Positions 7,483 to 34,367 of a stretch of 64,000 nucleotides of DNA are shown here, in pieces; within the stretch, counting starts at the first letter, position 1; every line of letters starts with the position of its first letter. The stretch spans positions 129,131-193,130 of the forward strand of contig NZ_JAMXEX010000010.1 of NCBI RefSeq assembly GCF_025370775.1. The letters run 5' to 3'. Below the pieces are notes generated by a model. It searched no databases, was not told the DNA's origin, and saw only the letters and a list, made by a program, of their open reading frames with translations. This stretch comes from Ancylothrix sp. D3o (GTDB lineage Bacteria > Cyanobacteriota > Cyanobacteriia > Cyanobacteriales > Oscillatoriaceae). Position numbers and translations under genes: made by a program.

Positions 7483-7700
7483 AGCAGCCGGTTCACCAAA
7501 AGCAGAGAAGGATACCATTTTAAGTTTTCAGTTTTTGAGCTTAAATTTTAAAAGTCTTACAAAAAGTCTTTTTACAGATAAATATCTATCAAACATTTGA
7601 ACAAAACCCGGAGCAGCTTTGCGCGAACGACCTCAAGCAAAAAATCCACCCGAAGCCGCCACGCGCAAAATCCGAGCCCTTCTTTCATTCTAAGCCGAAA

Positions 7701-8441
7701 TTATTGGCTCAGCGCTTTTAAAAAGCTTTTTAATCCCGATAAAAGTCCTTGACGTTTTGCTTGGGGTTGCGGTTGTCCTTGCGGCGAACCTTCGGGAGTC
7801 TCACCGGCACCCAGCGCCTTATTCAAAATATCATCCAACGCATCCCCCACCGGCTTTTCAGGTGTCTCTGAAATCAACTCATACCCCTCCCCAACTTCCA
7901 ACCACACCTGCCAAGGTGAAGGATAACAGCGAAAAATCGTCGCTCCTTCTCTTGCCTGAATATAGTAACAACTCTCAATCGTTTTCAAAAAACGCTCTCT
8001 CAAATCCCTTGCCGCTACGCCTATCCCAATCGTAGCAATATTTTCTAAGCGTGGAAGCAACAAAATTACCGCCCGATCTCCTGCTTCTTGACACATTTTT
8101 TCAACTTCATTCACTTCTACAGAAGACGGTTCAACAAACAAATAAACCTCATCATCTGGCTGCATTTGCCCCTTAATTTCACTCATTCCCCGAATCGTAT
8201 AAGGTTTCTCTCCCCAATCCCGCCGAGCCAGCGCCGCCGCACCGGCATCAGGAAAATACACCCTCAACTTTTCCCCATATTTCTCAACAGCCGGCAAAAA
8301 TTGCTCAGCCACCCCCTGCGCCTTCAATTCTGGAATCACAATTTCCACCTGCAAACGCCGGTAGCCATCCGCAAGCGCTGAAGAAGTCGCTTCTATTGAC
8401 TGAGCAATTGCTTCCTCTAAATCCTTGGGTAATTCAGCCAT
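7701..8441 (-). CDS. DUF1995 family protein
   Basis: Conserved in cyanobacteria and plastids; the plant relative LPA3 is linked to photosystem II assembly, though a function here is only inferred. The sequence begins LPKDLEEAIAQSIEATSSALADGYRRLQVE, the usual family opening, and has AAALARRDWG and VEKMCQEAGDRAVILLLPRL. The last 40 residues are low complexity (GETPEGSPQGQPQPQAKR) and end with a short basic helix. The ATG at 8441 is the only plausible start. Confidence 0.78.
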   Translation of the reverse strand: MAELPKDLEEAIAQSIEATSSALADGYRRLQVEIVIPELKAQGVAEQFLPAVEKYGEKLRVYFPDAGAAALARRDWGEKPYTIRGMSEIKGQMQPDDEVYLFVEPSSVEVNEVEKMCQEAGDRAVILLLPRLENIATIGIGVAARDLRERFLKTIESCYYIQAREGATIFRCYPSPWQVWLEVGEGYELISETPEKPVGDALDDILNKALGAGETPEGSPQGQPQPQAKRQGLLSGLKSFLKALSQ

Positions 8442-10539: not shown

Positions 10540-10803
10540 AAAAAACAGTCGTGCTGGTTCAGACCCACACACCTGTAACCCAGCCGCCGCACAAAAGAGA
10601 CAATGCCTCTTTGATGCAGCTAGATAAGACGTGCAATCTGCCCAATGGTTGAAAGTTTGTACTTCATAACTTTTATCCTAGTTTAACAGTTTAAATACCT
10701 TTATTTTCTCAGACGCAAAGGTTTTAAGTGGCGCTGCTCAATGCAAACCATTGAAAAAGATATTCTCAAGCCGTTATCAGTGTCCCGCAGGCACATAACA
10801 CAT

Positions 10804-13710
10804 TTACTTATCATTAATCACCTCCACAATTCCAGCACTGCCATCAATTCTCACTTGTTGTCCATCCTGCAAACATTCCATTGCATTAGGAACATCCATC
10901 ACCGCCGGAATGCCATACTCTCGCGCCACAATCGCCCCGTGAGATAACCGGCCCCCCACCTCAGAAATTATACCTCCAGCACGCGCCAACAACGGCCCCC
11001 ACCCGGCGTCTGTATAAGGCACCACGACAATTGTCTGCCGGTCAACTTCCAAATTTGTGCGCCATTGACGGACTACTTTGATCTTTGCTTCAACAATCCC
11101 CGGACTAGCGCCAATTCCCCGCAAAATCGTCTCACCCACAGCCGGCTCCCTAACCACTGGCACCGGTGGCATATTACCATAGACAACAAACGGAATATTC
11201 GTTAAATTTCGGTCATTTTCTAGTTGATTTTTTCGCATTTCTATGGTATGATCCAGATTCATTTCTTGATCAATTCCGCCCACCACAAGCTGCCGGATTT
11301 CCGCAAATTCCAGATAAAAAATATCGCCTTTTTCCGCTAAAAATCCTGAATTCAGGAAAACATTTTCTAAAGCCAAAAACAAAGCCCGCAACTCAGCCAA
11401 AAATTGACTGTAAATGGCGGTTACTTGCCCCTTGAGATTTAAGCGACGCTGGACAATTTTTGTTTTCCAGTTTTCCTCTGCCGGTCTACTGGTAGCCAAA
11501 GTCGGCTGGCGTATATATTCAGCCAGCAAATCTAAAACTGCCTCTGGGGTTTCTTTCCATCGGGGTACAGCGATATCTGTTGCCACATCACTCAAATAAC
11601 CGAAATGTTCGAGAAACTCTTCAAATTTTTCTAAAATATTTTTTCCCGAATGAACTCTTGCCAATAAAGCAAAAATTTCTTCATTTTCTGCTGGCAAGTC
11701 GGCGGTGTTTGGTAACAACCGGCGGGCCGAATTGGCGAGATTTTGCAGAGAACGCACTGCTGCAACTTCTGGCAACTGACTGTTATCTAAGTCGCTCTCA
11801 TTCACTTTAAAAATTCCTTGCCGCAGAGCATAACTTAGGGGTGAAAATATGCTATAATAAGTTGCTTTTTTCAATGCTTCTAAGGCTGCATCAATCCGCT
11901 GCAATAACTCTAAAGGTTCCGTCGGTAAAGAGTTGGCTAATTGAGCTTGGGCCGGTCTGAAATAAAGATCGTAATCTCGCTGAAAATCTTTCTCTAAATT
12001 CCACTCTTGCTTGAGCAATCTTAGTAAACCGGGTAACTGTTGAAAGGTAGAAGAAAGGGGAGGTTTGGTAAATTTTGCTCCTCGTGTTAAAAATTCCAAA
12101 CTTTCGGCAGGTAAACCCATTTTGAGGAAAATTTCTCCTAGCAATGTTGCATTAAAGTAAGCACGAGAATAATGCAGGGTTGCTGTTTGATTAAAATCTA
12201 AATTTGCGGCGCTTTCGGCTAAAACAATTTTAAAAATATCGCCCCAAACGCCACAAGTTAAAGGCCGGTTAATTGACCAAGTTAAAGGCCGAATTAACCC
12301 CGGAATGACTTCGGCGGCGATTTTTCGTGTCCACAGCGGAAAAAGAGTAGTAACAGGACGGGCTTGCAACAACCATAAATGATCGCCATCATAAGACCAT
12401 TCAATATCTTGGGGGATGCCGTGATATTTGGCTTCTATGTGACGGGCTAAATAGGCTACTTCTTGAATTAAGGCCGGTGGAATATCGCCTTCTCCTTCAA
12501 CAATTAACTCTAAATTTTCGGGTTTTTTCCAATTTTCGACGTTTTCAATTTCGGGAACAAAAACTCGATATTGTTCTGGGGTAAATTGTCCTGATACGAT
12601 TCGATTGCAATCTCCTGGTAATGCTTCTATGACAACAGAATTTAGGCTAGAATTGATTGGATCGCGGCTGAAAGCGACACCGGAAAAAACGCCTTTAATT
12701 TGTTGCTGAATCACCACTGCCATCGAATTTTCAGGAAGTTGCCGGTCGCGGCGATAAGCTTGGGCAGCAGGGCTATTATATGAAGAAAAACAGCGAGTAA
12801 TTGCGTCTTGTAATTGCTGTTTATTGGTAATATTTAAAATGCTTTCATACTGACCGGCAGCGGAAGCTTTTTCGCTGTCTTCGCCAATGGCAGAAGAACG
12901 CACAACTAAAGGCTTTTCTACATTTGGTTGCAGCCAATCTAACAAAGGTTGGGGGTCATCACCTGCCGGTAAAATCCACCCCTGCGGTACGGGATACCCC
13001 CACGATTTTAGCTGAGATAAATTAGCAGCTTTTTGGCCGGCTTTTTGGGTTTCTAAAGGCCGGTCGAGTGTAAGAATTGCCTTATTTCCTTGGAAAAAGC
13101 GAAACATTTTTTGAGACTCCTCTTGTCCTGATGTTGCGGGTAAGTTTAAATCATCGGGAATCATTTTATAAATTAAAGCAAGTAAGAGAGAAAGCAAAAC
13201 TGCGGTAGCAACTCGTTCGCCTTCATAGGGGTGAAAAAGTGCTAAAACTACAGGGAAAATAACTAAACTAGCCAGCTTTCCTAAGTTTTTTTCTCTTATC
13301 AAAGTAAAGGTTACGCCGGTGATTAAAAAAACAAAAATAGCAGCTTTAGGGGAGTGAACCAATACACCCCAAACCACATTTGTTGTACCGGCACCTTTGC
13401 CAATGAAATACCGGCCCAAAACCAAGGCCATCAAAGCAACTAATTCCCACGCAGATCCCGGCAGAAAAAACATTCTTGTCAGCAATACTGCTAGAATACC
13501 TTTTGCTGCTTCCGAGACAACGGCCAAAATTCCGGCAGTTTTGCCACCGTGAAAAAATGCCGCTGAAACACTGATATTGCCGGTGCCAATTTGTTTTAAA
13601 TTTTGGCCGGTGATAAATTTAACAATCCAAGCAATTAAAGGCAGTCCTCCCAAAATAGGACAGACTAGCAAAATCAACACCAAACCCCAAACCTGAGTTA
13701 AAGTCATCAT
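10804..13710 (-). CDS. PlsY-like acyltransferase fused to PEP-synthase-like domains
   Basis: A 968-residue fusion. Residues about 1-190 are multi-pass membrane sequence resembling PlsY glycerol-3-phosphate acyltransferase (LKQIGTGNISVSAAF, AAKGILAVLL, GKGAGTTNVVWG), though the motifs are divergent from the canonical GSGNxGATN and GGKGVAT. Residues about 205-470 are a PPDK/PEP-synthase ATP-grasp domain (VRSSAIGEDSEKASAAGQYES, QQQIKGVFSGVAFSRDP, DIEWSYDGDHLWLLQARPV). The C-terminal 60 residues are the mobile phosphohistidine domain, with H924 in GGRLSHGAIVAREYGIPAV. The substrate is unknown. Both enzymatic halves look complete in order, but activity is not certain. Confidence 0.8.
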   Translation of the reverse strand: MMTLTQVWGLVLILLVCPILGGLPLIAWIVKFITGQNLKQIGTGNISVSAAFFHGGKTAGILAVVSEAAKGILAVLLTRMFFLPGSAWELVALMALVLGRYFIGKGAGTTNVVWGVLVHSPKAAIFVFLITGVTFTLIREKNLGKLASLVIFPVVLALFHPYEGERVATAVLLSLLLALIYKMIPDDLNLPATSGQEESQKMFRFFQGNKAILTLDRPLETQKAGQKAANLSQLKSWGYPVPQGWILPAGDDPQPLLDWLQPNVEKPLVVRSSAIGEDSEKASAAGQYESILNITNKQQLQDAITRCFSSYNSPAAQAYRRDRQLPENSMAVVIQQQIKGVFSGVAFSRDPINSSLNSVVIEALPGDCNRIVSGQFTPEQYRVFVPEIENVENWKKPENLELIVEGEGDIPPALIQEVAYLARHIEAKYHGIPQDIEWSYDGDHLWLLQARPVTTLFPLWTRKIAAEVIPGLIRPLTWSINRPLTCGVWGDIFKIVLAESAANLDFNQTATLHYSRAYFNATLLGEIFLKMGLPAESLEFLTRGAKFTKPPLSSTFQQLPGLLRLLKQEWNLEKDFQRDYDLYFRPAQAQLANSLPTEPLELLQRIDAALEALKKATYYSIFSPLSYALRQGIFKVNESDLDNSQLPEVAAVRSLQNLANSARRLLPNTADLPAENEEIFALLARVHSGKNILEKFEEFLEHFGYLSDVATDIAVPRWKETPEAVLDLLAEYIRQPTLATSRPAEENWKTKIVQRRLNLKGQVTAIYSQFLAELRALFLALENVFLNSGFLAEKGDIFYLEFAEIRQLVVGGIDQEMNLDHTIEMRKNQLENDRNLTNIPFVVYGNMPPVPVVREPAVGETILRGIGASPGIVEAKIKVVRQWRTNLEVDRQTIVVVPYTDAGWGPLLARAGGIISEVGGRLSHGAIVAREYGIPAVMDVPNAMECLQDGQQVRIDGSAGIVEVINDK

Positions 13711-21200: not shown

Positions 21201-21593
21201 TTAATTGCCCAACGCTTGAGCCGGTGTCACTCTTCCCAGTGGAGTCCTGTCAAAATCAGCATCAAAACTAACCAAACGCAAACCACGACGTTGAGCTAAC
21301 ACATACTGATAAGCATCATCAAAATCCAAATTTAAATTCCGTGCAGTTTCACCCAAACTCGCCAACTCTTCCAAATTTAGCCTCACTAAACGCATAGCAG
21401 CCATATCTTCCACAAACAATTCAAAAACATCTCCTAAATTCCGTCTCACAAGCAAAATGCCAATAGAATAAAGACGAAAATCTGTGATATGGATACTTCC
21501 TACCGGTGCATTTAATAAAAACCTCTGGGCTTCGTCCGCACGTTGTTGTTGCAACAGCACCTCTAAAAAAACATTTGTATCGACTAAAAACAC
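21201..21593 (-). CDS. PIN-domain toxin (VapC type)
   Basis: A 130-residue PIN RNase. MFLVDTNVFLEVLL carries the first catalytic aspartate; LDFDDAYQY and SFDADFDRT carry further acidic residues. The start is GTG at 21593, immediately after the antitoxin's TAA, so the pair is translationally coupled. It is paired with a DUF2281 antitoxin, a common cyanobacterial arrangement. RNA target unknown. Confidence 0.85.
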   Translation of the reverse strand: MFLVDTNVFLEVLLQQQRADEAQRFLLNAPVGSIHITDFRLYSIGILLVRRNLGDVFELFVEDMAAMRLVRLNLEELASLGETARNLNLDFDDAYQYVLAQRRGLRLVSFDADFDRTPLGRVTPAQALGN

Positions 21594-25468: not shown

Positions 25469-28138
25469 CTAGCTAACAAAATTGGCGTGTCGTAGCGGAA
25501 TATCAATCACAAACTTCGCCCCCTGATTTGGTGCAGAAATACAGCGCAAACTACCCTTGTGTTTTTCCACAACAATTTGATAGCTAATTGCCAGCCCCAA
25601 ACCAGTACCCTTACCCACCGGCTTTGTTGTATAAAACGGATCAAAAAGTTTTTGCCGCACAGATTCCCTCATCCCCGCACCATTATCCGCGATTTCAATG
25701 CGAACAAATTGACAGTTAGGCTCAACAACTTGATTATCAGTTTTACAATCACTTTCAATTGTGCCAATATGCAGCGCCGTCTGAATAGTAATCGTAGGAG
25801 GATTGGCTTTAATTACTTCTTTTGAGCGGTGGCTGTTGAAATCGTCTAAAGCATCAATCGCATTTGTAAGAATATTCATAAACACCTGGTTAAGCTGCCC
25901 CGGATAGCATTCAACCAAAGGCAGATTTCCATATTCTTTGAGGATTTCAATAGGAAAATGTTCCGGTTTTGCTTTTATCCTGTTTTGCAAAATCATTAAA
26001 GTGCTTTCAATGCCAGAATGAATATCAGCCTCTTTCATTTCCGCCTCATCAATCCGTGAAAAGTTCCTCAAACTAGCAACAATTTCACGGATACGATCTG
26101 CGCCCACATTCATTGAATCCAGCATTTTTGGCAAATCTTCTTTCAAAAACTCCAAATCTATATCTTCAATTTTAAACTCTATTTCTTGCCCTGGATTAGG
26201 GTATTTTTCCTCATACATTTGCAACAATCTCAAAATATTTTGAGTATATTCTTTAGTATGAACCAAATTACCAAAAATAAAATTAACCGGATTATTAATT
26301 TCGTGCGCCACCCCCGCCACAAGTTGACCAAGAGAAGACATTTTTTCACTTTGAATTAACTGGGCTTGGGTGCGTTGTAGCTCTTGCAAAGCTTTCTCTA
26401 GTTCCATAGCTTTTTCTCTGATCTGTGCTTCCGACTGGCGCATCACCTCCTGAGCCTGTTTGCGTTCCGTAATATCGGCAGCCATGCTCATCACCAGACG
26501 CCGGCCATCCGGTAGTTCCCCTAAAGGCGCGGAACTAAACTCCCAAATTTTGATATTCCCGCTGGCTGTCCTAATTTCATATTCCCCCTCTTCCACCCTA
26601 CCAGCGAGGCTGTAAAGTTTGTCAATATAATCGTACACAGAGTTTTTTCTTTCCCCGTAGGCTTTTTGTGTCCAGTCAGCTATTGTTGGGATATCTTCTA
26701 GGGTGTAACCGCTCAACTCTGTCCAAGTTTGGTTAAGGGCGATAACTTCTCCATCTTCGGCATGAACGATCAGCGGAAAAGGAGCGTATAAAACCGCACG
26801 ACGAAAACGATCCTCGCTTTGCTGTAAAGCTTCTTGTGATTGTTTTTGCTCGGTAATATCATTATTAATTTCCAAAATTGCCGAAGGCTGACCGGCCTCA
26901 TCGCGCAGCAGCGTCCACCGGCTCGCCACTGTAATTTTCCCGCCATCGCGCAGAGTGTGAATCAATTCCCCTTGCCAGAAGCCCTGTTGCAAAAATCTTT
27001 TTAAAATTTCTTCGAGGGGCTGGGGAAATACTGTCTCTAAAAAACTGTGGATATACTTGCCGATGGTTTCTTGTTTAGTGAAACCGTAAAGCTTTTCTGC
27101 CCCCTGATTCCAGTAAATAATCACATCATCTAGGGAGCGAATCATAATAGAATCGTTTGCCAAGTCAATCATTTGGTTGTGTTGTTGCAGCGCCGCCTCC
27201 ACTTCTTTTCGCTCAGAAATTTCTGTGTTTAAAGCCCAATTCATCGCCTCGACTTGTTTTGTTTTGGCTTGTGCCTTTTGCGCTTGATAAACCGCCAGCG
27301 TCAGACACCCAGCCACTACCGAACCGGCCAGCAGTACCAATTCGGGAACTGATGATTGTTCATCTGCGAGCAACTCAGCAGAAGGCCAGACGCGCACTCG
27401 CAACGTAATACCGTCAAGAGGAAAAGACTCTTCCTGGCCCCAAATCTCTGCGTTTTGGCTATTGGCTTCGTCGCGGCTGTAAATTTTGGTTTGACCCTCA
27501 AACACGCTCAACCGATAGTCGGGGAGAATTTGCGTATTCAAAATTGTTTTGAATAGTCCTTCGGTGCGAAAGCTGGCGAAGACGAACCCTTCCAAACGAT
27601 TATTGCGGAGTACCGGCACATAGGCCCACAACTCCCTGCTGCCTTCGGCGGAGAGGGAGGGGACTACAATAATATCTCGCCACTTTGACGGCTTGGGGGC
27701 GAGAACTTGCTGATGGGCTTGGGTTTGGGGTGCCTCAATTTCAGGCCGCGATGTTGTCCAGCGCGGTTCAAACTCGGTGCTTACCCACTGCAAAGTCTGG
27801 CAATTGGGATAAAAATTTAAGTAAGTTTTTGCTGCTAACTGCCATTCGGAGGCGCTGAGTTGATCGTACTTAGCCAAGGAACTGCTGAGTTGTTGGAGTG
27901 CGTCAATTCGGGTAGCCAGACGGCCACGAACTTCGTTTCTGACAGCCTCCGCTGCGATCTGAACTTTCCCGTCAATTTGGCTGCGTACCTGTTGCTTTGC
28001 TACTTGCCAAAGCCCTAACGTGGCTAAAAGGGTTCCAGCGCCTACCAAGAGGGGAAGCCAGCGGAAGAAAGAGGGCGATTGGCCGGTGGGGGCATTCGTC
28101 CACTTTTCCCAATTGCCAGAGACGATGTTTATTTTCAT
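25469..28138 (-). CDS. PAS-domain hybrid-less sensor histidine kinase
   Basis: An 889-residue membrane sensor kinase. A transmembrane segment at about 27-46 and another at about 268-286 bracket an extracytoplasmic domain of roughly 220 residues with a CHASE-like appearance (SEWQLAAKTYLNFYPNCQTLQWV). Two PAS/PAC units follow (ending DITEQKQSQEAL and DITERKQAQEVM). A coiled coil leads to the phospho-acceptor in GVAHEINNPVNF, then the ATPase domain: NAIDAL (N box), ADNGAGM (G1), KPVGKGTGLGL (G2). No receiver domain is fused and no partner regulator adjoins. The stimulus is unknown. Confidence 0.9.
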   Translation of the reverse strand: MKINIVSGNWEKWTNAPTGQSPSFFRWLPLLVGAGTLLATLGLWQVAKQQVRSQIDGKVQIAAEAVRNEVRGRLATRIDALQQLSSSLAKYDQLSASEWQLAAKTYLNFYPNCQTLQWVSTEFEPRWTTSRPEIEAPQTQAHQQVLAPKPSKWRDIIVVPSLSAEGSRELWAYVPVLRNNRLEGFVFASFRTEGLFKTILNTQILPDYRLSVFEGQTKIYSRDEANSQNAEIWGQEESFPLDGITLRVRVWPSAELLADEQSSVPELVLLAGSVVAGCLTLAVYQAQKAQAKTKQVEAMNWALNTEISERKEVEAALQQHNQMIDLANDSIMIRSLDDVIIYWNQGAEKLYGFTKQETIGKYIHSFLETVFPQPLEEILKRFLQQGFWQGELIHTLRDGGKITVASRWTLLRDEAGQPSAILEINNDITEQKQSQEALQQSEDRFRRAVLYAPFPLIVHAEDGEVIALNQTWTELSGYTLEDIPTIADWTQKAYGERKNSVYDYIDKLYSLAGRVEEGEYEIRTASGNIKIWEFSSAPLGELPDGRRLVMSMAADITERKQAQEVMRQSEAQIREKAMELEKALQELQRTQAQLIQSEKMSSLGQLVAGVAHEINNPVNFIFGNLVHTKEYTQNILRLLQMYEEKYPNPGQEIEFKIEDIDLEFLKEDLPKMLDSMNVGADRIREIVASLRNFSRIDEAEMKEADIHSGIESTLMILQNRIKAKPEHFPIEILKEYGNLPLVECYPGQLNQVFMNILTNAIDALDDFNSHRSKEVIKANPPTITIQTALHIGTIESDCKTDNQVVEPNCQFVRIEIADNGAGMRESVRQKLFDPFYTTKPVGKGTGLGLAISYQIVVEKHKGSLRCISAPNQGAKFVIDIPLRHANFVS

Positions 28139-28554
28139 GGATCGTGTTTGATTGAGCGACTTTTAATACTTGTGGGAAGAGGCCAGCAATCTATCTCTAG
28201 TGGATAGCAATTCAAAGGCGCACCGCTCGAAAAGTAGATTTTTGGAAATAATATTGAGTGTTTAGTAGACGAGGGTAGTCTTATGGTTGTTGGGGTGGTC
28301 GGTGGGTAAGACCGGCTCTTGCGGTAGAATGATTTTCACCTCCTCTTGGAGTTATTGTCAAGATAAACTCTCCTTTTTATGGAAGTGCTGATGTACTCTG
28401 ATGGTTTATATGTTGCCGATTTCTTTTTAGAAAGACACCCTTCTGATATATAGCCTTTTCAGGCAGATGAAGTACACCCCCGATTATTGTAGGGGCGGTG
28501 CCCCCGTGCCAGCCCGTTCCGGAACGTACCTCACCAATATGAAAACCGCTATAT
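28139..28554. other. intergenic region without recognised genes
   Basis: About 415 bases upstream of the histidine kinase. It contains short G/T-rich stretches and TGTAGGGGCGGTGCCCCCGT at about 28480-28510, a GGGGC/GCCCC-containing palindrome common in intergenic repeats. No open frame with coding character was seen. Confidence 0.5.
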
Positions 28555-28731
28555 TTATTTGCTCCTTATGCTCAGTCAAGAAAATCCTATCGAAGCAGTT
28601 TGGTTATCATTGAAAAGCTTACTTAGACGGGGTTACCGCTTCTGTAAAAACTTTACCATTATCAAGTGAACGATTGTTTAAGCTTTTAGTTGATTTCAAG
28701 TTGTTCTCTTTTGCTGATATCAAAAAATATA
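28555..28731 (+). pseudogene. decayed IS630-type transposase C terminus
   Basis: Three overlapping frames together read FAPYAQ / QENPIEAVWLSLKSLLRRG-YRFCKNFTIIK / SSERLFKLLVDFKLFSFAD-IKKY. The NPIEAVW block is the third-acidic-residue region of IS630/Tc1-type DDE transposases. At least two frameshifts and a stop are present, and nothing upstream encodes the rest of the enzyme. Terminal inverted repeats were not identified. Confidence 0.65.
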
Positions 28732-28777
28732 ATGCTTTTTTATGCTTCATTGGAAAATGCTATATAAAAGTTTTATC

Positions 28778-29461
28778 TTATATCGCTTTATTTAAGTTTT
28801 CTAAACTAATCAGCCATTCATTAAAATGACGACATTTACTTCTAATGGTTTCTAAACCAATTTTTTGAGCCATTAAAGGTGCTACAGAAACTTTTGCACC
28901 TTTATAACTGGGAATAAATTCAATAATTCGCTTAGAAGGTGCAGTTGTTATTCCATCATTGATTAATTCGGGAGATGTATAGTTGTTACAAAATTCCGAT
29001 AATTGCTCTATATTTATTGAATATTCGGGGAACCTTTCTATTAATAGATTTGGATTACTTAGAATCAAGGCTTCAAATTCATGGAGTTGAATATAAGGAA
29101 TAAAACGATAATCATTAATATCGTTAGCAAAAGCCATTTCTAATTGTGTAACTCTTTGATATGGATCAGATATTTTTTTTGCTTCATCAAATTGAGGGAA
29201 TTCATTTGGTAAAGCATATAAATCAAGCATAGTTGTCAATCTTACCTCTTTAGCTTTGTCCTCTTTTAGCCAAATCAATATATCGTTTTTAGTTTTTTCA
29301 TAATTAACTAATCCACCTCGATAGACGCGGGTTTTAGTCCGTTTAGTTGTAACACAATGGACATCAGTAAGCACGTTAAAATCAGCTAAATGTTGAGCTA
29401 AAACGGAGTTTACAAATTCTTCTTCTGTTTGGCCTTCAGCAATAATATGTAAACGAATCAT
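28778..29461 (-). CDS. DUF4276 family protein (TOPRIM-like), partner of the AAA ATPase
   Basis: A 227-residue protein. The N terminus IRLHIIAEGQTEEEFV contains the conserved EGxTEE motif, and TMLDLYALP and YIQLHEFEALIL follow; this matches DUF4276, thought to have a TOPRIM-like nuclease fold. Its ATG overlaps the stop of the ATPase gene by 4 bases (ATGA), so the two are translationally coupled. In other ATPase-TOPRIM pairs, such as PARIS and OLD-type systems, the nuclease is released or activated by the ATPase upon phage infection; the same mechanism here is inference. Confidence 0.78.
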   Translation of the reverse strand: MIRLHIIAEGQTEEEFVNSVLAQHLADFNVLTDVHCVTTKRTKTRVYRGGLVNYEKTKNDILIWLKEDKAKEVRLTTMLDLYALPNEFPQFDEAKKISDPYQRVTQLEMAFANDINDYRFIPYIQLHEFEALILSNPNLLIERFPEYSINIEQLSEFCNNYTSPELINDGITTAPSKRIIEFIPSYKGAKVSVAPLMAQKIGLETIRSKCRHFNEWLISLENLNKAI

Positions 29462-30561
29462 TTGCTAGGTCTTCCTCCAATAATATTTTTATTCCATAAT
29501 TCAGAGAGGGAATATTCTTCTAACCAATCTTGAAGAGTGTCTGAATCTAACCGTTTCAAAGTAGATTCACGATTTTTTCTTTCAACGACAATAATATCTT
29601 CCGGTTCAAAACAATCAATTAACAAGGTAGATTGAGTTGCTAAAATGACTTGTGTATGATGAGAGATACTTTTAATCAAACCACCAAGAATATTAATGGC
29701 ATAAGGATGTAACCCTAATTCTGGCTCATCCAAAATCAAGACATCAGGTAAATCGCTTTCTGGTTGTAATAAAAGAGTCACTAATGCCATCGTTCTTAAT
29801 GTACCATCTGAGGCTTGATGCGAGCTAAAAATTAAGTCGGTATTATTTTCTTTCCATTGTATAATTACAGAATAATTTATAGGCTCTAAAACAAATTCAA
29901 GGAAAAAGGGAGCAATTTGTCTGAGAGTTTCTACTATTCTTTGGTAATAAATAGGTTCTGTTTCTCTTAACCTTAAAAGTAATGGTGCTAAATTTGCTCC
30001 ATCCTCTCGTAAATAACGATTATCGTCTGTATTCCATCTTTGCCTAATTCGAGCCGTTTCTGAAGTGTTATGAAACTGATAAACTGCACAATTTTGAATT
30101 AATTTAAAAATTATTTTAGCAGTAGAATCTCCTAAATTTGCTTGATTAATTAATGCTGCTTCTTTATGACCTGCATCTAACGATTGCCAAGATGCTAAAG
30201 TCGGAAAAGTTGAACGAGAAAAACGATATTTTTCCTCAGCAAAAATAAAGGTATCGGCTGCTCCATGAAAAAGCCTAAAAAAATAATCATTTTTACCGAC
30301 ATCTGTTTCAAACTTCAATTCTACTTGAATTTGGGGAGTGATTGCTGCACCATCAAACAAAAGAGCATTTGCTCCTCCAGATTGACCTATAAATATTTGT
30401 AATTGTCCGGGGTTTTGTATCATCCAACGGAGTAATTTAAAAAAAGAAATAAAGTTAGATTTACCGGCTCCATTTGCCCCTATTAAAACATTGATTGGTG
30501 ATAAAACTAAGTCAAGTTCTTTAATTGATTTGTAACCTTTTATTTTAATTCTTTTCAGCAT
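29458..30561 (-). CDS. AAA15/AAA21-type SMC-like ATPase, candidate defence sensor
   Basis: A 367-residue ABC/SMC-like ATPase. MLKRIKIKGYKSIKELDLVL leads into Walker A GANGAGKSNF at 28-37. Later SSHQASDGTLRTMALVTLL resembles the signature region, VLILDEPELGLHP is Walker B, and QVILATQSTLLID is the following beta strand with switch. There is no long coiled coil insert. ATG 30561 is chosen over 30579 because the conserved beta strand starts there. It is the first gene of a two-gene operon with the DUF4276 gene. Predicted role: sensing of invader and control of the partner nuclease. Confidence 0.85.
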   Translation of the reverse strand: MLKRIKIKGYKSIKELDLVLSPINVLIGANGAGKSNFISFFKLLRWMIQNPGQLQIFIGQSGGANALLFDGAAITPQIQVELKFETDVGKNDYFFRLFHGAADTFIFAEEKYRFSRSTFPTLASWQSLDAGHKEAALINQANLGDSTAKIIFKLIQNCAVYQFHNTSETARIRQRWNTDDNRYLREDGANLAPLLLRLRETEPIYYQRIVETLRQIAPFFLEFVLEPINYSVIIQWKENNTDLIFSSHQASDGTLRTMALVTLLLQPESDLPDVLILDEPELGLHPYAINILGGLIKSISHHTQVILATQSTLLIDCFEPEDIIVVERKNRESTLKRLDSDTLQDWLEEYSLSELWNKNIIGGRPSK

Positions 30562-30582
30562 AGTTATTTTATAGTCCAAAAA

Positions 30583-30645
30583 AACGATTTTCTAAAAATC
30601 CTGTTTCTCAAAAAGACCAGGTTTTTTAAAAAGCCTATTATAAAT
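30583..30645. repeat. CCTGGTTT/CTGTTTCT-type intergenic element
   Basis: AAAAATCCTGTTTCTCAAAA followed by GACCAGGTTTTTTAAAAAG lies between two same-strand genes. It is a diverged member of the AAACCCGGTTTCT hairpin set found at 6603, 21020 and 42342. Pairing is imperfect. Confidence 0.35.
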
Positions 30646-30649
30646 TACG

Positions 30650-31783
30650 TTAAAAATCTACACCGCGTTTCAATTCTACGCCGTGATTTGCATAGTGTTT
30701 ATGACAATAAACCTCAGAATGCACACTTGCCAAATCAAAATAAGCAGGAATTTTTACACACCGGCCTGTAATCACAATTTCGGTATCACGAGGTTTCCGT
30801 AACAAGGCTTCAACAATGGGTTCTACAGGCAGCAATTCTAAATCCACTGTCGGATTCAATTCATCTAATATAATCGTCTTATACAACCCTGATGCTATCG
30901 ACGCTCTGGCAATTTCCCAACCACGCTCAGCCTCTACATAATCTAGTTCTTGCTGTTGACCACGCCAGACAATTGCATCACGTCCGCAACGGTGATGATC
31001 AACTAAATTCGGATAAATTTGTTGCAAGGCTGCAATGGCTGCATCTTCTGTATATCCACTCCCACCTTTTAGCCATTGCATAATTAAAACTCGGTGAGAT
31101 TTATCTTGACTAATTCCGCGTCCAATGGCTTGTAAACCTTTGCCTAAAGCGCTGGTTGATTTGCCTTTGCCGGCGCCGGTATATATCTCTATTCCCTCCA
31201 GACCATTGTGTTGAGAAAGTTCGTGATAATGCGGCTTCATTTCTGAATGCAAATCGGCAATTTCTAACAACGCCGGGGGAGCAGACCGGCCTGTGGCAAT
31301 AATTTCGAGATGCTCTGGTTTATGCTGGAGAGTATGAATGACCTCCTCAACCGGCAACAATCCCAAGTCGAGAACGGGGTTTAATTCATCTAAAACCACC
31401 ACCGAGTACAAACCAGAGGCGATGGCACCTTTGGCGACATCCCAACCGCGTTGAGCTTCTAAGCGATCAAACCGAGTAATTTCATCTGGGCCAAAAAATT
31501 CTGCTCTGCCGGTGCGTACCTGGTCGATCAAATGCGGAAAACCGCGCTGTAAAGCCTCAATTGCGCCATCCTCATCGTAATCCCGTTCGGGCCCTTTGAG
31601 AAACCGCAACAGCAGGACTCGCGTAGGCTGTTCTGTATTTATCCCTAAGCCAATGGAGCGCAAAACCACGCCTAAAGCCGCTTGGGACTTGCCCTTGCCT
31701 GCTCCATCATAAACGTGAATTTGACCGACGATCCGCTCCTGACGGACAACAGCGGTGCGAATGCCAATCCCTATCCTGCTCAT
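30650..31783 (-). CDS. tandem-duplicated cob(I)alamin adenosyltransferase-like (CobA/BtuR) P-loop protein
   Basis: One polypeptide holds two homologous P-loop domains. Domain 1 (residues about 12-190) has YDGAGKGKSQAALG and VVLDELNPVLDLGLLPVEEV; domain 2 (about 195-375) has YTGAGKGKSTSALG and IILDELNPTVDLELLPVEP. Both halves retain Walker A and Walker B. CobA/BtuR enzymes adenosylate corrinoids, normally as homodimers of single domains, so the fusion may act as an internal dimer. ATG 31783 (MSRIGIGIRT) is chosen; the frame is open for another 27 residues upstream. No cobalamin riboswitch was recognised. Confidence 0.82.
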   Translation of the reverse strand: MSRIGIGIRTAVVRQERIVGQIHVYDGAGKGKSQAALGVVLRSIGLGINTEQPTRVLLLRFLKGPERDYDEDGAIEALQRGFPHLIDQVRTGRAEFFGPDEITRFDRLEAQRGWDVAKGAIASGLYSVVVLDELNPVLDLGLLPVEEVIHTLQHKPEHLEIIATGRSAPPALLEIADLHSEMKPHYHELSQHNGLEGIEIYTGAGKGKSTSALGKGLQAIGRGISQDKSHRVLIMQWLKGGSGYTEDAAIAALQQIYPNLVDHHRCGRDAIVWRGQQQELDYVEAERGWEIARASIASGLYKTIILDELNPTVDLELLPVEPIVEALLRKPRDTEIVITGRCVKIPAYFDLASVHSEVYCHKHYANHGVELKRGVDF

Positions 31784-31898
31784 GGTTTCAACTGTGTTTA
31801 GGTGCGCTTTCAATTTTCTTAAGGTATTGTACCTTTGTATGTAGCTCCCCACACAAAAAAACAAAATCTGCCTATTTATTTAACCGTTTAAAGCACAA

Positions 31899-32474
31899 AT
31901 GCTCATACCTTTACGCGCTATCTTGTTTCAAGCTTTTTTTTTACTAATTGTCATCGCCATCGAAGCGTCAATTTTGTACTGGCGCTTAAAAATTGGCCGC
32001 AAAAAAAGCGTTGAATATTCGGCAGCTATGAATTTATTTGCAGCGATTTTTGGCTGGGTTGTTTTTTTTCTTTTTGTTCCCTTGCTTAGTAGGGATTTAA
32101 AAGCACAAATTATCAGTTATATTTTTTTTAACAAGTTTTTCTATCCCAGCGACTTCCAGCCTGTGTTGTGGTTAGTGGTTGCAGCAGTTATAAGTTTTTT
32201 TGTTTCTTTGTTTGTCAAAATTCGCCTTTTAGAAATTTTGCGTTATTTACTCAAACCAGAACTCGTCAGAGATGATTTTCAACCAGGCACTCCCTTGAGC
32301 CTTGCCGAGCCTATTTTATCAATGACCGGCATCAAAAGCAAGACTCTCAAACAAAAAAGCAAGAGCCAAAAAATTTTGTTAGGACGCCGGCAAGCTATTG
32401 CAATATTATGGGGTCATGCAACCAGTCATACCACTATTTTACTGCTGTTATTTTTACGAAATATCCTGAGCTAA
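31899..32474 (+). CDS. fraC: filament integrity protein FraC
   Basis: Septum-associated membrane protein needed to keep cells of a trichome joined and for cell-cell communication. Hydrophobic helices lie at about residues 7-28, 44-63 and 88-107, then a basic loop and a C-terminal helix (HTTILLLLFLRNIL). Size, topology and position first in a fraC-fraD-fraE operon agree with the operon described in Anabaena. The stop codon is 4 bases from the fraD start. Recognition rests on context as much as on sequence. Confidence 0.8.
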   Translation: MLIPLRAILFQAFFLLIVIAIEASILYWRLKIGRKKSVEYSAAMNLFAAIFGWVVFFLFVPLLSRDLKAQIISYIFFNKFFYPSDFQPVLWLVVAAVISFFVSLFVKIRLLEILRYLLKPELVRDDFQPGTPLSLAEPILSMTGIKSKTLKQKSKSQKILLGRRQAIAILWGHATSHTTILLLLFLRNILS

Positions 32475-32478
32475 AAAT

Positions 32479-33591
32479 ATGAAAGGAATTCTTGAATTTA
32501 TCAAACAAGTTTTAACCCGTGTCAAACCGCCGCGTCCTTTTTCGTGGCAAACATTATTTATAATTAGCTTGTTTTCTTGGTTTATGGCTTTCATGTCTTT
32601 TCTTTTCTCTCAAGGAAGCAATAATACTTATAGTCCTTTTGTTCGAGAGCTTTTAACGTTATGGGGCTGGATTTTTTTAGTTTTAAGTTTGGATTGGTGG
32701 ACAGTCGAAAATTCTACTTCTTTCGCCAATTTTTTATTAGGAGCATGGCTGACTGGGGCGGTGGTGTGTATCTTTATTTTTGGGTTCTTATTTGAAAGAG
32801 TCTCGATTTTATATGAGCCTTTACCCTATGTGTGTTGGCCGATATTTTCTGCAACTATTGCTGTATTACACCGGCTTTATCCGGCTTCTGTTAAGTATAA
32901 ATCTCTTTTAGATCCGCCTAAAATTATAATTTTAATTTTACTACATCTTACCATAAGTTGCTGGTTAAACTTTCATTTTATGATTCAAGATTGGTTAAAA
33001 GAATATCCCAGTCTGCGAGGGGATAACTTTGATCGCAGCGGGTTTGTGAGTTTCGTGGAAGTGAACCCCTTATCAAATAATGCAGCACGGGGAGAAAATA
33101 TGCTCAATTCGCTAGGCACTTTTTTGAAAAACGCAGCGGATGGAGAACCTTTAGCAAAAGGACAAGAAGTGTTTGCCAAATTAGAAAAAGAGCTTAAAGG
33201 AAATAACCCCCAAACAGGAGAACAACTCACCGGCAAACCTTGGCTAGAGGTGAAAAAAACGCTTTTAAAAAATCAACAACTAACGACTCCAGACTTAGAA
33301 GAAGATGTTTTTTGGTATATCAGAGCCGACCGGAAAATCGGACAATTAGAATATACCCTAAAATTACAAGCCCTATGGCGTGGGCCGAGTTCCTCCGCCT
33401 GGGGGTATGAAATTGAAAAAATTTGCAGACTGGAGGAAATTTATCGTATAGTAACACCGCCTGCCGGCCAGAAACAAGCTCAAATGAAACAAGTTTCTGT
33501 TGGTGAGGTAAGTTGTTCAGCGCCAGAATTAAAACCCAAGGAAACCTCACCAAATCAATTAGTAAATAGTCGCAATGTTTTAGGAGATTAG
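32479..33591 (+). CDS. fraD: septal junction-related protein FraD (DUF5357)
   Basis: Component of cyanobacterial septal junctions. The N-terminal half has five hydrophobic helices (for example LFIISLFSWFMAFMSFLF and IIILILLHLTISCWLNFHF). A periplasmic C-terminal half of about 180 residues follows (NAARGENMLNSLGTFLKNAA, DLEEDVFWYIRADRKIGQLEYTL), consistent with the soluble domain known for FraD. It lacks a long coiled coil before the helices. It is tightly spaced with fraC (4 bases) and fraE (2 bases). Confidence 0.82.
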   Translation: MKGILEFIKQVLTRVKPPRPFSWQTLFIISLFSWFMAFMSFLFSQGSNNTYSPFVRELLTLWGWIFLVLSLDWWTVENSTSFANFLLGAWLTGAVVCIFIFGFLFERVSILYEPLPYVCWPIFSATIAVLHRLYPASVKYKSLLDPPKIIILILLHLTISCWLNFHFMIQDWLKEYPSLRGDNFDRSGFVSFVEVNPLSNNAARGENMLNSLGTFLKNAADGEPLAKGQEVFAKLEKELKGNNPQTGEQLTGKPWLEVKKTLLKNQQLTTPDLEEDVFWYIRADRKIGQLEYTLKLQALWRGPSSSAWGYEIEKICRLEEIYRIVTPPAGQKQAQMKQVSVGEVSCSAPELKPKETSPNQLVNSRNVLGD

Positions 33592-33593
33592 CC

Positions 33594-34367
33594 GTGAATA
33601 TCAATCGAGTTTTAACGATAGCTAAAAATGTCTTTTCCGAACTCATTCGCCAGCGAGTTCTCTATATCATCCTCTTTTATGGGATTGTCTTACTGGTTAG
33701 CTTCCCCCTTTTAAAAGAAATTTCTGTAGGAACGGAAAATAAAATTTTTATAGATTTTGGTTTGGGTTTAATGGGAATCCTTGGTTTAGTTGTTATTGTT
33801 TTTATAGGAACATCCCTGATTAACAAGGAAATCGAAAAACGCACGATTTTAGTGTTAATTGCTAAGCCGATCAGCCGCACAGAATTTTTGCTTGGCAAGC
33901 ATTTAGGTTTATCGGCTGTCTTGGGGTTGATGTTAGTGGCGATGAGTGCCATTTATTTTGCTTTGCTGATTCTGAGACAAGTACAATTTTCCTTTGGCAG
34001 TATTTTACTGGCGATTGTTTTTCTGTTTTTTGAATTGTCTCTTTTAGCGGCGGTGGCTTTATTTTTTGGGGCTTTTACTAATACGCTTTTGGCTACTTTA
34101 CTCACCTCTGCTGTGTATGTGATGGGACACCTTAGTAAGGATTTATTACAATTGGGGGAAATTAGCAAAAATAGCAATATCAAAAATGTTACTCAAGCAT
34201 TGTATTTAGTTTTGCCTGATTTGGGCCGGTTGGATTTGAAAAATCTTGCTGTTTATGGGATTTTGCCGCCGGTTACTGATTTGTTTTTGAATGCTTTTTA
34301 TGCTTTGATTTATGTGGTTTTGTTGTTGGCTTTTGCTAATTTAATTTTTTCAAGACGGCAGTTTTAG
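33594..34367 (+). CDS. fraE: ABC-2 type permease FraE
   Basis: A 257-residue ABC exporter permease with six hydrophobic helices. Landmarks are NVFSELIRQRVLYIILFYGI, NKEIEKRTILVLIAKPISRTEFLLGKHLG (the coupling-helix region typical of ABC-2 permeases) and VYVMGHLSKDLLQL. It starts with GTG or ATG at 33594-33597 directly after fraD; the frame given begins GTG. No ATPase gene adjoins. FraE is required for filament integrity in Anabaena. Confidence 0.85.
   Translation: MNINRVLTIAKNVFSELIRQRVLYIILFYGIVLLVSFPLLKEISVGTENKIFIDFGLGLMGILGLVVIVFIGTSLINKEIEKRTILVLIAKPISRTEFLLGKHLGLSAVLGLMLVAMSAIYFALLILRQVQFSFGSILLAIVFLFFELSLLAAVALFFGAFTNTLLATLLTSAVYVMGHLSKDLLQLGEISKNSNIKNVTQALYLVLPDLGRLDLKNLAVYGILPPVTDLFLNAFYALIYVVLLLAFANLIFSRRQF

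Follow-up and report, generated by a model that had tools for sequence, protein, structure and literature searches.

The PARIS system keeps an ATPase, AriA, and a TOPRIM-fold effector, AriB, in separate genes, and AriB is a DUF4435 protein. RloB (PF13707), which has an ATPase partner and a TOPRIM assignment, starts with EGxxTE. AriB is described as a two-metal TOPRIM nuclease that cuts tRNA, the PARIS effector being also reported as toxic (PMC12409363), and AriA is reported to sense phage Ocr (PMC12839542). In the OLD nucleases (class 1; class 2, with GajA of Gabija; class 3, with retron-Eco8; and HEC-04/IbfA), an ABC ATPase and a TOPRIM are fused in a single protein; in BpOLD, two metals are bound by E400, D455, D457, E404, T506 and E508, and K562 aids (PMC6755086). 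OLD-ABC/TOPRIM modules have already been published within BREX loci (PMC12839542). The name HEC stands for Hma-embedded candidate, a label for genes that sit between those for the helicase, the methylase and the ATPase of Hma (PMC12111858), a system itself described in PMC8565338; HEC-04 (PMC12111858) and "several" HECs including HEC-06 (PMC12988326) are reported to be active, and HEC-01 appears in one paper as a predicted system in Desulfovibrio piger. Our literature search, outside which the founding preprint (10.1101/2024.01.29.577857) lies, found no test of HEC-01 and no paper mentioning DUF4276.

We considered a pair of genes lying in a stretch of 64,000 nucleotides of the cyanobacterium Ancylothrix sp. 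D3o, the whole of which is called the window here (Table 1). The ATGA overlap holds the stop codon TGA of the ATPase gene (29458-29460) and the start codon ATG of the DUF4276 gene (29459-29461), both on the minus strand. The first-pass annotation had read an ATPase with Walker motifs followed by an overlapping second gene, and both are indeed present: the ATPase carries the Walker A motif GANGAGKS and the Walker B motif VLILDEPELGLHP and matches AAA_21 (Pfam, E 1.2e-31), and the second protein carries EGQTEEEFV near its start and has DUF4276 (E 8.8e-54) as its sole Pfam match at E <= 0.1, values at which neither identity is due to chance. NCBIfam assigned the DUF4276 protein to no family and, for the ATPase, none of the 25 listed out of 51 families reached its cut-off.

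Table 1. Features of the ATPase/DUF4276 locus, in window coordinates.
Feature	Coordinates	Strand	Basis
ATPase gene (HEC-01A), ABC/SMC-head-like, 367 aa	29458..30561	-	Pfam, PADLOC, AF2 model
DUF4276 gene (HEC-01B), TOPRIM-like fold, 227 aa	28778..29461	-	Pfam, PADLOC, AF2 model, alignment
4-nt ATGA overlap of both reading frames	29458..29461	-	sequence
GGA GGA codons of the ATPase C-terminal GGRP, Shine-Dalgarno-like GGAGGA	29473..29478	-	sequence; family-wide codon tests
Right-hand end of decayed IS630-type (DDE_3) element	28552..28765	+	match to long genomic copies

Among the models of PADLOC-DB 2.0.0 (2023), the best match of the ATPase is HEC-01A (PDLC04175, E 2.1e-140, residues 2-365), well ahead of AriA (6.5e-31), and the best match of the DUF4276 protein is HEC-01B (PDLC04188, E 1.1e-78, residues 1-224); both genes thus match the HEC-01 models over nearly their full length, and they are adjacent and co-directed, with the same strand and a 4-nt overlap. 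The locus had been proposed as a type related to PARIS and OLD but distinct from them, with DUF4276 in place of DUF4435. The replacement of DUF4435 is confirmed, as Pfam finds only DUF4276 in the protein and PF14491 has no match in the genome. The claim of a new type has to be withdrawn because the HEC-01 models match both genes, and the concept of OLD-ABC/TOPRIM pairs in BREX is in print. Membership in PARIS itself was rejected, DUF4435 being found neither by Pfam, nor by the genome search with PF14491, nor by hhalign. Gabija was rejected as well, since the genes are two and separate and no UvrD-like helicase occurs among the scanned neighbours (kinase, CobO, FraC-type), as was a class 3 OLD/retron, with no RT in 10 neighbours (Pfam) or in 49 window ORFs (PADLOC, 1e-20). 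Rfam gave no match in 26000-34000.

For the AlphaFold2 model of the ATPase (pLDDT 92.6), the structural matches are the heads of SMC and Rad50 (Z up to 22.5), together with PtuA-type ones at about 19 to 20; in a sequence search, the OLD nuclease 6p74 ranks first among PDB entries (1.4e-11). The DUF4276 protein was modelled from a 65-row alignment made of the window protein, 62 of 80 genome loci and two of three viral loci, with a pLDDT of 93.6 and a pTM of 0.89. Its best Foldseek match in the PDB is the OLD Toprim 6njv (E 1.8e-3, probability 0.97, TM 0.37/0.40), no PDB match falling under 1e-3. In VIA-align, the first seven rows are OLD Toprims (Z 9.3, 8.9, 8.7 and 8.7), PH0156 (9.0), AriB (7.6) and the retron-Eco8 OLD (7.4), with 6nk8 superposed at Z 9.3 and 3.9 A over 175 residues and AriB at 4.7 A over 185 residues; as unrelated folds begin at Z 6.8, within 1 Z of AriB and Eco8, only the rows above 8.5 stand clear. 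The agreement of the top rows, at low TM-scores, gives modest support to a TOPRIM-like fold for the modelled protein, and the likeness to OLD and PARIS that the first-pass annotation had suggested is upheld by these matches. Comparison by hhalign with DUF4435, OLD-Toprim and RloB gave probabilities of 0.2, 0.7 and 0.3 of 100, null results that are weak because the partner alignments had 10, 4 and 12 rows, respectively; when the 65-row alignment served as a profile against PDB sequences, the single match was a chaperonin (E 0.57), which we ascribe to chance.

Six residues, E9, E13, D80, E128, E130 and K190, are invariant in 65 of 65 DUF4276 homologues. E9 sits after strand 2-8 of the model, in agreement with the invariant Glu that follows the first strand of a TOPRIM, and the anticipated EGxTEE motif is present, as EGQTEEEFV. 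The D-x-D that had been expected with it is replaced by D80-L-Y82, position 82 being Tyr in 64 and Phe in one of the 65 rows, and for this reason we use the label TOPRIM-like and not canonical TOPRIM; the DUF4276 paralogue of the same genome has DLD there. From motif order and secondary structure, and not from superposition, we infer that E9/E13/D80/E128/E130/K190 would correspond to E400/E404/D455/T506/E508/K562 of BpOLD. The E..E, D, E, K pattern is thus shared with OLD nucleases, from which the pair differs by its two genes in place of a single fused protein and by DxY in place of DxD. In BpOLD, D457 is reported to contact the metal only via waters and single mutants stay active (PMC6755086), so that by analogy the D-x-Y of DUF4276 need not mean an inactive protein. 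RloB resembles the DUF4276 protein in the start of its sequence and differs from it by D90 and D92, which all 12 RloB rows keep, and by having no profile similarity to DUF4276.

We read the pair as a stand-alone copy of HEC-01, in which an ABC-type (OLD/SMC-head-like) ATPase would gate a TOPRIM-like two-metal nuclease acting by abortive infection, and we give this reading about two chances in three. An ATPase-gated abortive-infection nuclease is proposed because of the analogy with AriA/AriB of PARIS, to which the pair is alike in its ATPase and TOPRIM-fold effector in separate genes and unlike in the DUF4276 family of that effector. The ATPase would hold the DUF4276 nuclease and sense a phage-made trigger or a nucleic-acid state; once triggered, it would release or activate the nuclease, which would cut host RNA or DNA so that the infection aborts, as AriA/AriB do with tRNA.

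The C-terminal tail of the ATPase carries a GGxP motif that hardly varies across the family (G362, G363 and P365 at 90% or more) and that falls in the low-confidence end of the model, residues 359-367. In the window, the GGAGGA in the GGRP codons lies 11 nt before the DUF4276 ATG. Among 74 loci (five of 79 have no GGxP and were omitted), the GGxP codons contain a Shine-Dalgarno-like tetramer (GGAG, GAGG or AGGA) in 54, where the codon use of the individual genes would predict 25.8 +/- 3.8 (2,000 draws, maximum 38). We also compared glycine columns in 43 of 73 ATPases retained after dereplication at 70% identity, the 73 being those of 72 of the 74 loci (the others are shorter than 340 aa) and of the window: the first tail Gly shows the tetramer in 74%, against 0-29% for nine other conserved Gly columns, and purine-ending codons make up 70 and 74% at the two tail Gly and 27-54% at the other conserved ones. 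From this excess, the GGxP motif may owe its conservation at least in part to a signal for translating the second gene, a role of the motif in the protein being also possible, and the Shine-Dalgarno-like site would tie synthesis of the effector to translation of its keeper. Promoter and terminator scans gave roughly the same yield as shuffled sequences, and the repeats around the pair are short two-copy matches.

The two genes are nearly always found together. All 31 best-scoring loci, which count the window's own pair and its paralogue, have a frame homologous to the ATPase in the 1.5 kb flanking DUF4276; in two of them (L021, L023) this frame is partial. Considering public genomes, and only the best 80 of at least 538 relatives, 79 have an ATPase frame immediately upstream in the same orientation, partial in three of them (L039, L079, L105), and in the exception (L110) only 47 bp of the record precede the DUF4276 frame. 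Twenty named phyla are represented among these 80, along with three unassigned records. Of 292 genomes sampled from the phylum of the window, 66 contain DUF4276, with up to nine matches per genome. Homologues of the protein itself occur in 13 of 60 relatives, a figure that includes the own genome; the seven same-family genomes, of which one has a completeness of 66%, have none. In a tree of the 65 rows, three cyanobacterial proteins form a group with that of the window (98/99), the Cyanobacteriota need at least three changes on starred branches with other phyla interleaved, and the phylum labels require 31 changes against a shuffled mean of 44.3, so that they, and likewise the Cyanobacteriota, are more clustered than by chance. 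The interleaved phyla and the patchy distribution are consistent with horizontal transfer but do not prove it. Relatives of DUF4276 are present on 12 of 72,556 plasmid records, in none of 50,697 phage records and on three viral contigs, two of which also carry the ATPase. One of the plasmids, Acinetobacter pTR11_2 (L203), is an 11-kb mobilizable replicon that combines vapBC, an ATPase/DUF4276 pair and the resistance gene tet(39).

In the window, the pair has a GC content of 31.0 and 32.7%, below every one of 37 other genes measured there, which average 43.8% (s.d. 4.0) and go no lower than 36.2%. It is flanked on one side by a PAS/histidine kinase and on the other by a CobO-type adenosyltransferase and a FraC-like cluster (Pfam), and stands among housekeeping genes, not inside Hma or restriction genes. 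The CobO/BtuR-type protein (30650-31864) has two PF02572 stretches in a single chain, apparently a tandem duplication, and full-length relatives at 74-94% identity; the genes that follow (31899-34367) are FraC (filament integrity), then DUF5357 and ABC-2 membrane genes, a Fra-like cluster. A 130-aa PIN-domain protein, possibly a lone toxin, is encoded at 21201-21593.

The decayed transposase already noticed beside the pair could be identified as the last 214 bp of a 1,144-bp IS630-like (DDE_3) element, at 86% identity, with 12 bp between the remnant and the DUF4276 stop codon; the 41-aa transposase remnant has no Pfam match by itself, and its IS630-type identity comes from the match to a long genomic copy, two of which exist elsewhere in the genome. 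In contig C36:3000-14000 (L215, 3086-6773), a long copy is followed downstream by a different ATPase gene, PDC-M07A-like (E 4.6e-75); the 194-aa gene overlapping this ATPase contains a VDRDGK stretch and is matched by neither Pfam nor PADLOC. When a clean empty site was sought, nothing past cobO matched the window in six relatives, which show three different arrangements. The proximity of the remnant, together with the lack of a DUF4276-protein homologue in the seven sister genomes, could be taken to mean that the pair is a decaying or inactive relic carried in with the IS element; both frames are nevertheless intact, the Walker motifs and the six catalytic-type residues are kept, and so is the ribosome-binding-like site, which makes a relic very improbable. 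The window pair is an intact and probably horizontally acquired member of HEC-01, a known candidate defence family, and the signs of mobility pointed out by the first-pass annotation are upheld.

The first-pass annotation had named recurrence of the pair beside other defence genes as a point to check, and the genomic survey shows it for some relatives. Again among the best 80 of at least 538 relatives, at least nine loci have a gene matching a defence model as immediate neighbour of the pair. In L038, the order is HEC-06, the pair, PglZ and then BrxL, and in L042 and L066 the pair stands between PtuB and PglZ; these three loci, with the pair beside PglZ, share concept and context with the published BREX OLD-ABC modules, of which the pair may be one, the term DUF4276 being absent from the main text of PMC12839542. 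The pair lies between HsdS and a type I restriction subunit in L092 and between type III mod and res in L100; it follows HsdS in L059 (Caldilineaceae), precedes a type I methylase in L046 and a type IIG enzyme in L099, and in L088 it has an Orf5/HEC-06-like gene before it and an SspC-like gene after it. The Aeromonas plasmid pMC64A carries the pair between SNF2-type helicase and DNA methyltransferase genes, unlike the window copy, which is not inside Hma or restriction genes. L059 encodes, past HsdS and the pair, a further HEC-01A/AriA-like ATPase (10709-11968, E 1.6e-40), and L056 (Rhodothermales) a second HEC-01B-type gene (7539-8261, E 1.3e-73) about 0.6 kb upstream of the ATPase of the pair.

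A second, divergent HEC-01 pair exists in the genome of Ancylothrix sp. D3o itself (contig C11:128000-137000, L216, 650-7902; HEC-01A 1.7e-160, HEC-01B 2e-73). It comes after a type III methyltransferase (mod) gene (3.3e-144) and before a ResIII-type gene (Pfam 1.2e-12), with 4-nt overlaps at both the mod-ATPase and the ATPase-DUF4276 junctions.

These gene orders bear on whether the pair could be a selfish toxin-antitoxin or addiction module, in which the ATPase restrains a toxic DUF4276 nuclease, the carrier DNA is stabilised and phage defence is incidental. Toxin-antitoxin pairs are often overlapped and translation-coupled, as the present genes apparently are; the ATPase family bears the Pfam name "putative AbiEii toxin, Type IV TA system", relatives occur on plasmids, once beside vapBC, and frequently no defence gene adjoins the pair. 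The location of some relatives inside mod/res, hsdS/hsdR and BREX gene orders speaks against such a module, and one pair could play both roles, toxicity being a property of the PARIS effector as well; we regard the addiction module as an improbable explanation, though the foremost one to set beside an abortive-infection HEC-01 copy.

Most of the closest loci (the same best 80 of at least 538) have varied, unshared neighbours that are not recognisable defence genes, which speaks against a defence-island picture. No neighbour family occurs in more than five loci except an ABC-ATPase-like cluster found in 16 loci at a median of 5.7 kb. Five Nostoc loci have a common neighbourhood, which suggests a long vertical stay within the genus. 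This common neighbourhood, the many copies among genes without a PADLOC match and the closeness of the ATPase model to SMC/Rad50 heads would fit a cellular DNA-repair or chromosome-cycle factor, as reported for the archaeal OLD ATPase Cran1 (PMC12796447). The presence of DUF4276 in under a quarter of the sampled genomes of the phylum and in none of the family relatives, the odd base composition, the plasmid copies and the near lack of recurrent neighbour families are opposed to such a housekeeping role, which we hold to be distinctly unlikely.

Using PADLOC at E <= 1e-20, we found defence matches in at least 15 of 141 near-neighbour proteins, a count that leaves out ATPase-type and HEC-01B-type neighbours and single matches to the DarG and RtcR models. 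Distant proteins gave seven kinds of defence family, with one member each of 108 among the matches listed, which possibly represent fewer proteins, some perhaps from the same islands; size exclusion concerned 6 of 147 immediate-neighbour proteins and 1 of 109 far ones. Near and far proteins compared in this way show no clear enrichment of defence genes around the pair. The PADLOC scan of the window itself covered 49 of the 65 listed ORFs of at least 100 aa, and in the 47 besides the pair only the SspA/DndA and AbiU models find a match, one member each, probably generic.

The reading of the pair as a stand-alone HEC-01 copy is supported by computation: the gene identities, the overlap, the near-obligate pairing, the TOPRIM-like model, the invariant catalytic-type residues, the patchy distribution and the sister pairs within restriction and BREX operons. 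A broader and rather doubtful proposal, offered tentatively, is that DUF4276 forms a separate lineage of TOPRIM-like nucleases whose metal site would consist of D-x-Y and an HExE helix in place of D-x-D, that the disordered GGxP tail would serve both as docking peptide and as ribosome-binding site of the effector, hard-wiring effector output to the ATPase, and that the genes would be mainly a solitary wandering immune pair, inserting at times in restriction or BREX operons to provide a second layer of defence.

Taken alone, the locus is an unremarkable copy of a candidate already catalogued, for which testable detail now comes from the fold, from the D-x-Y site and from the coupling signal. 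For DUF4276, a domain of unknown function, the TOPRIM-like fold and the named invariant residues open nuclease activity to direct testing, while a cell's means of keeping a toxic effector matched to its keeper is suggested by the coupling site.
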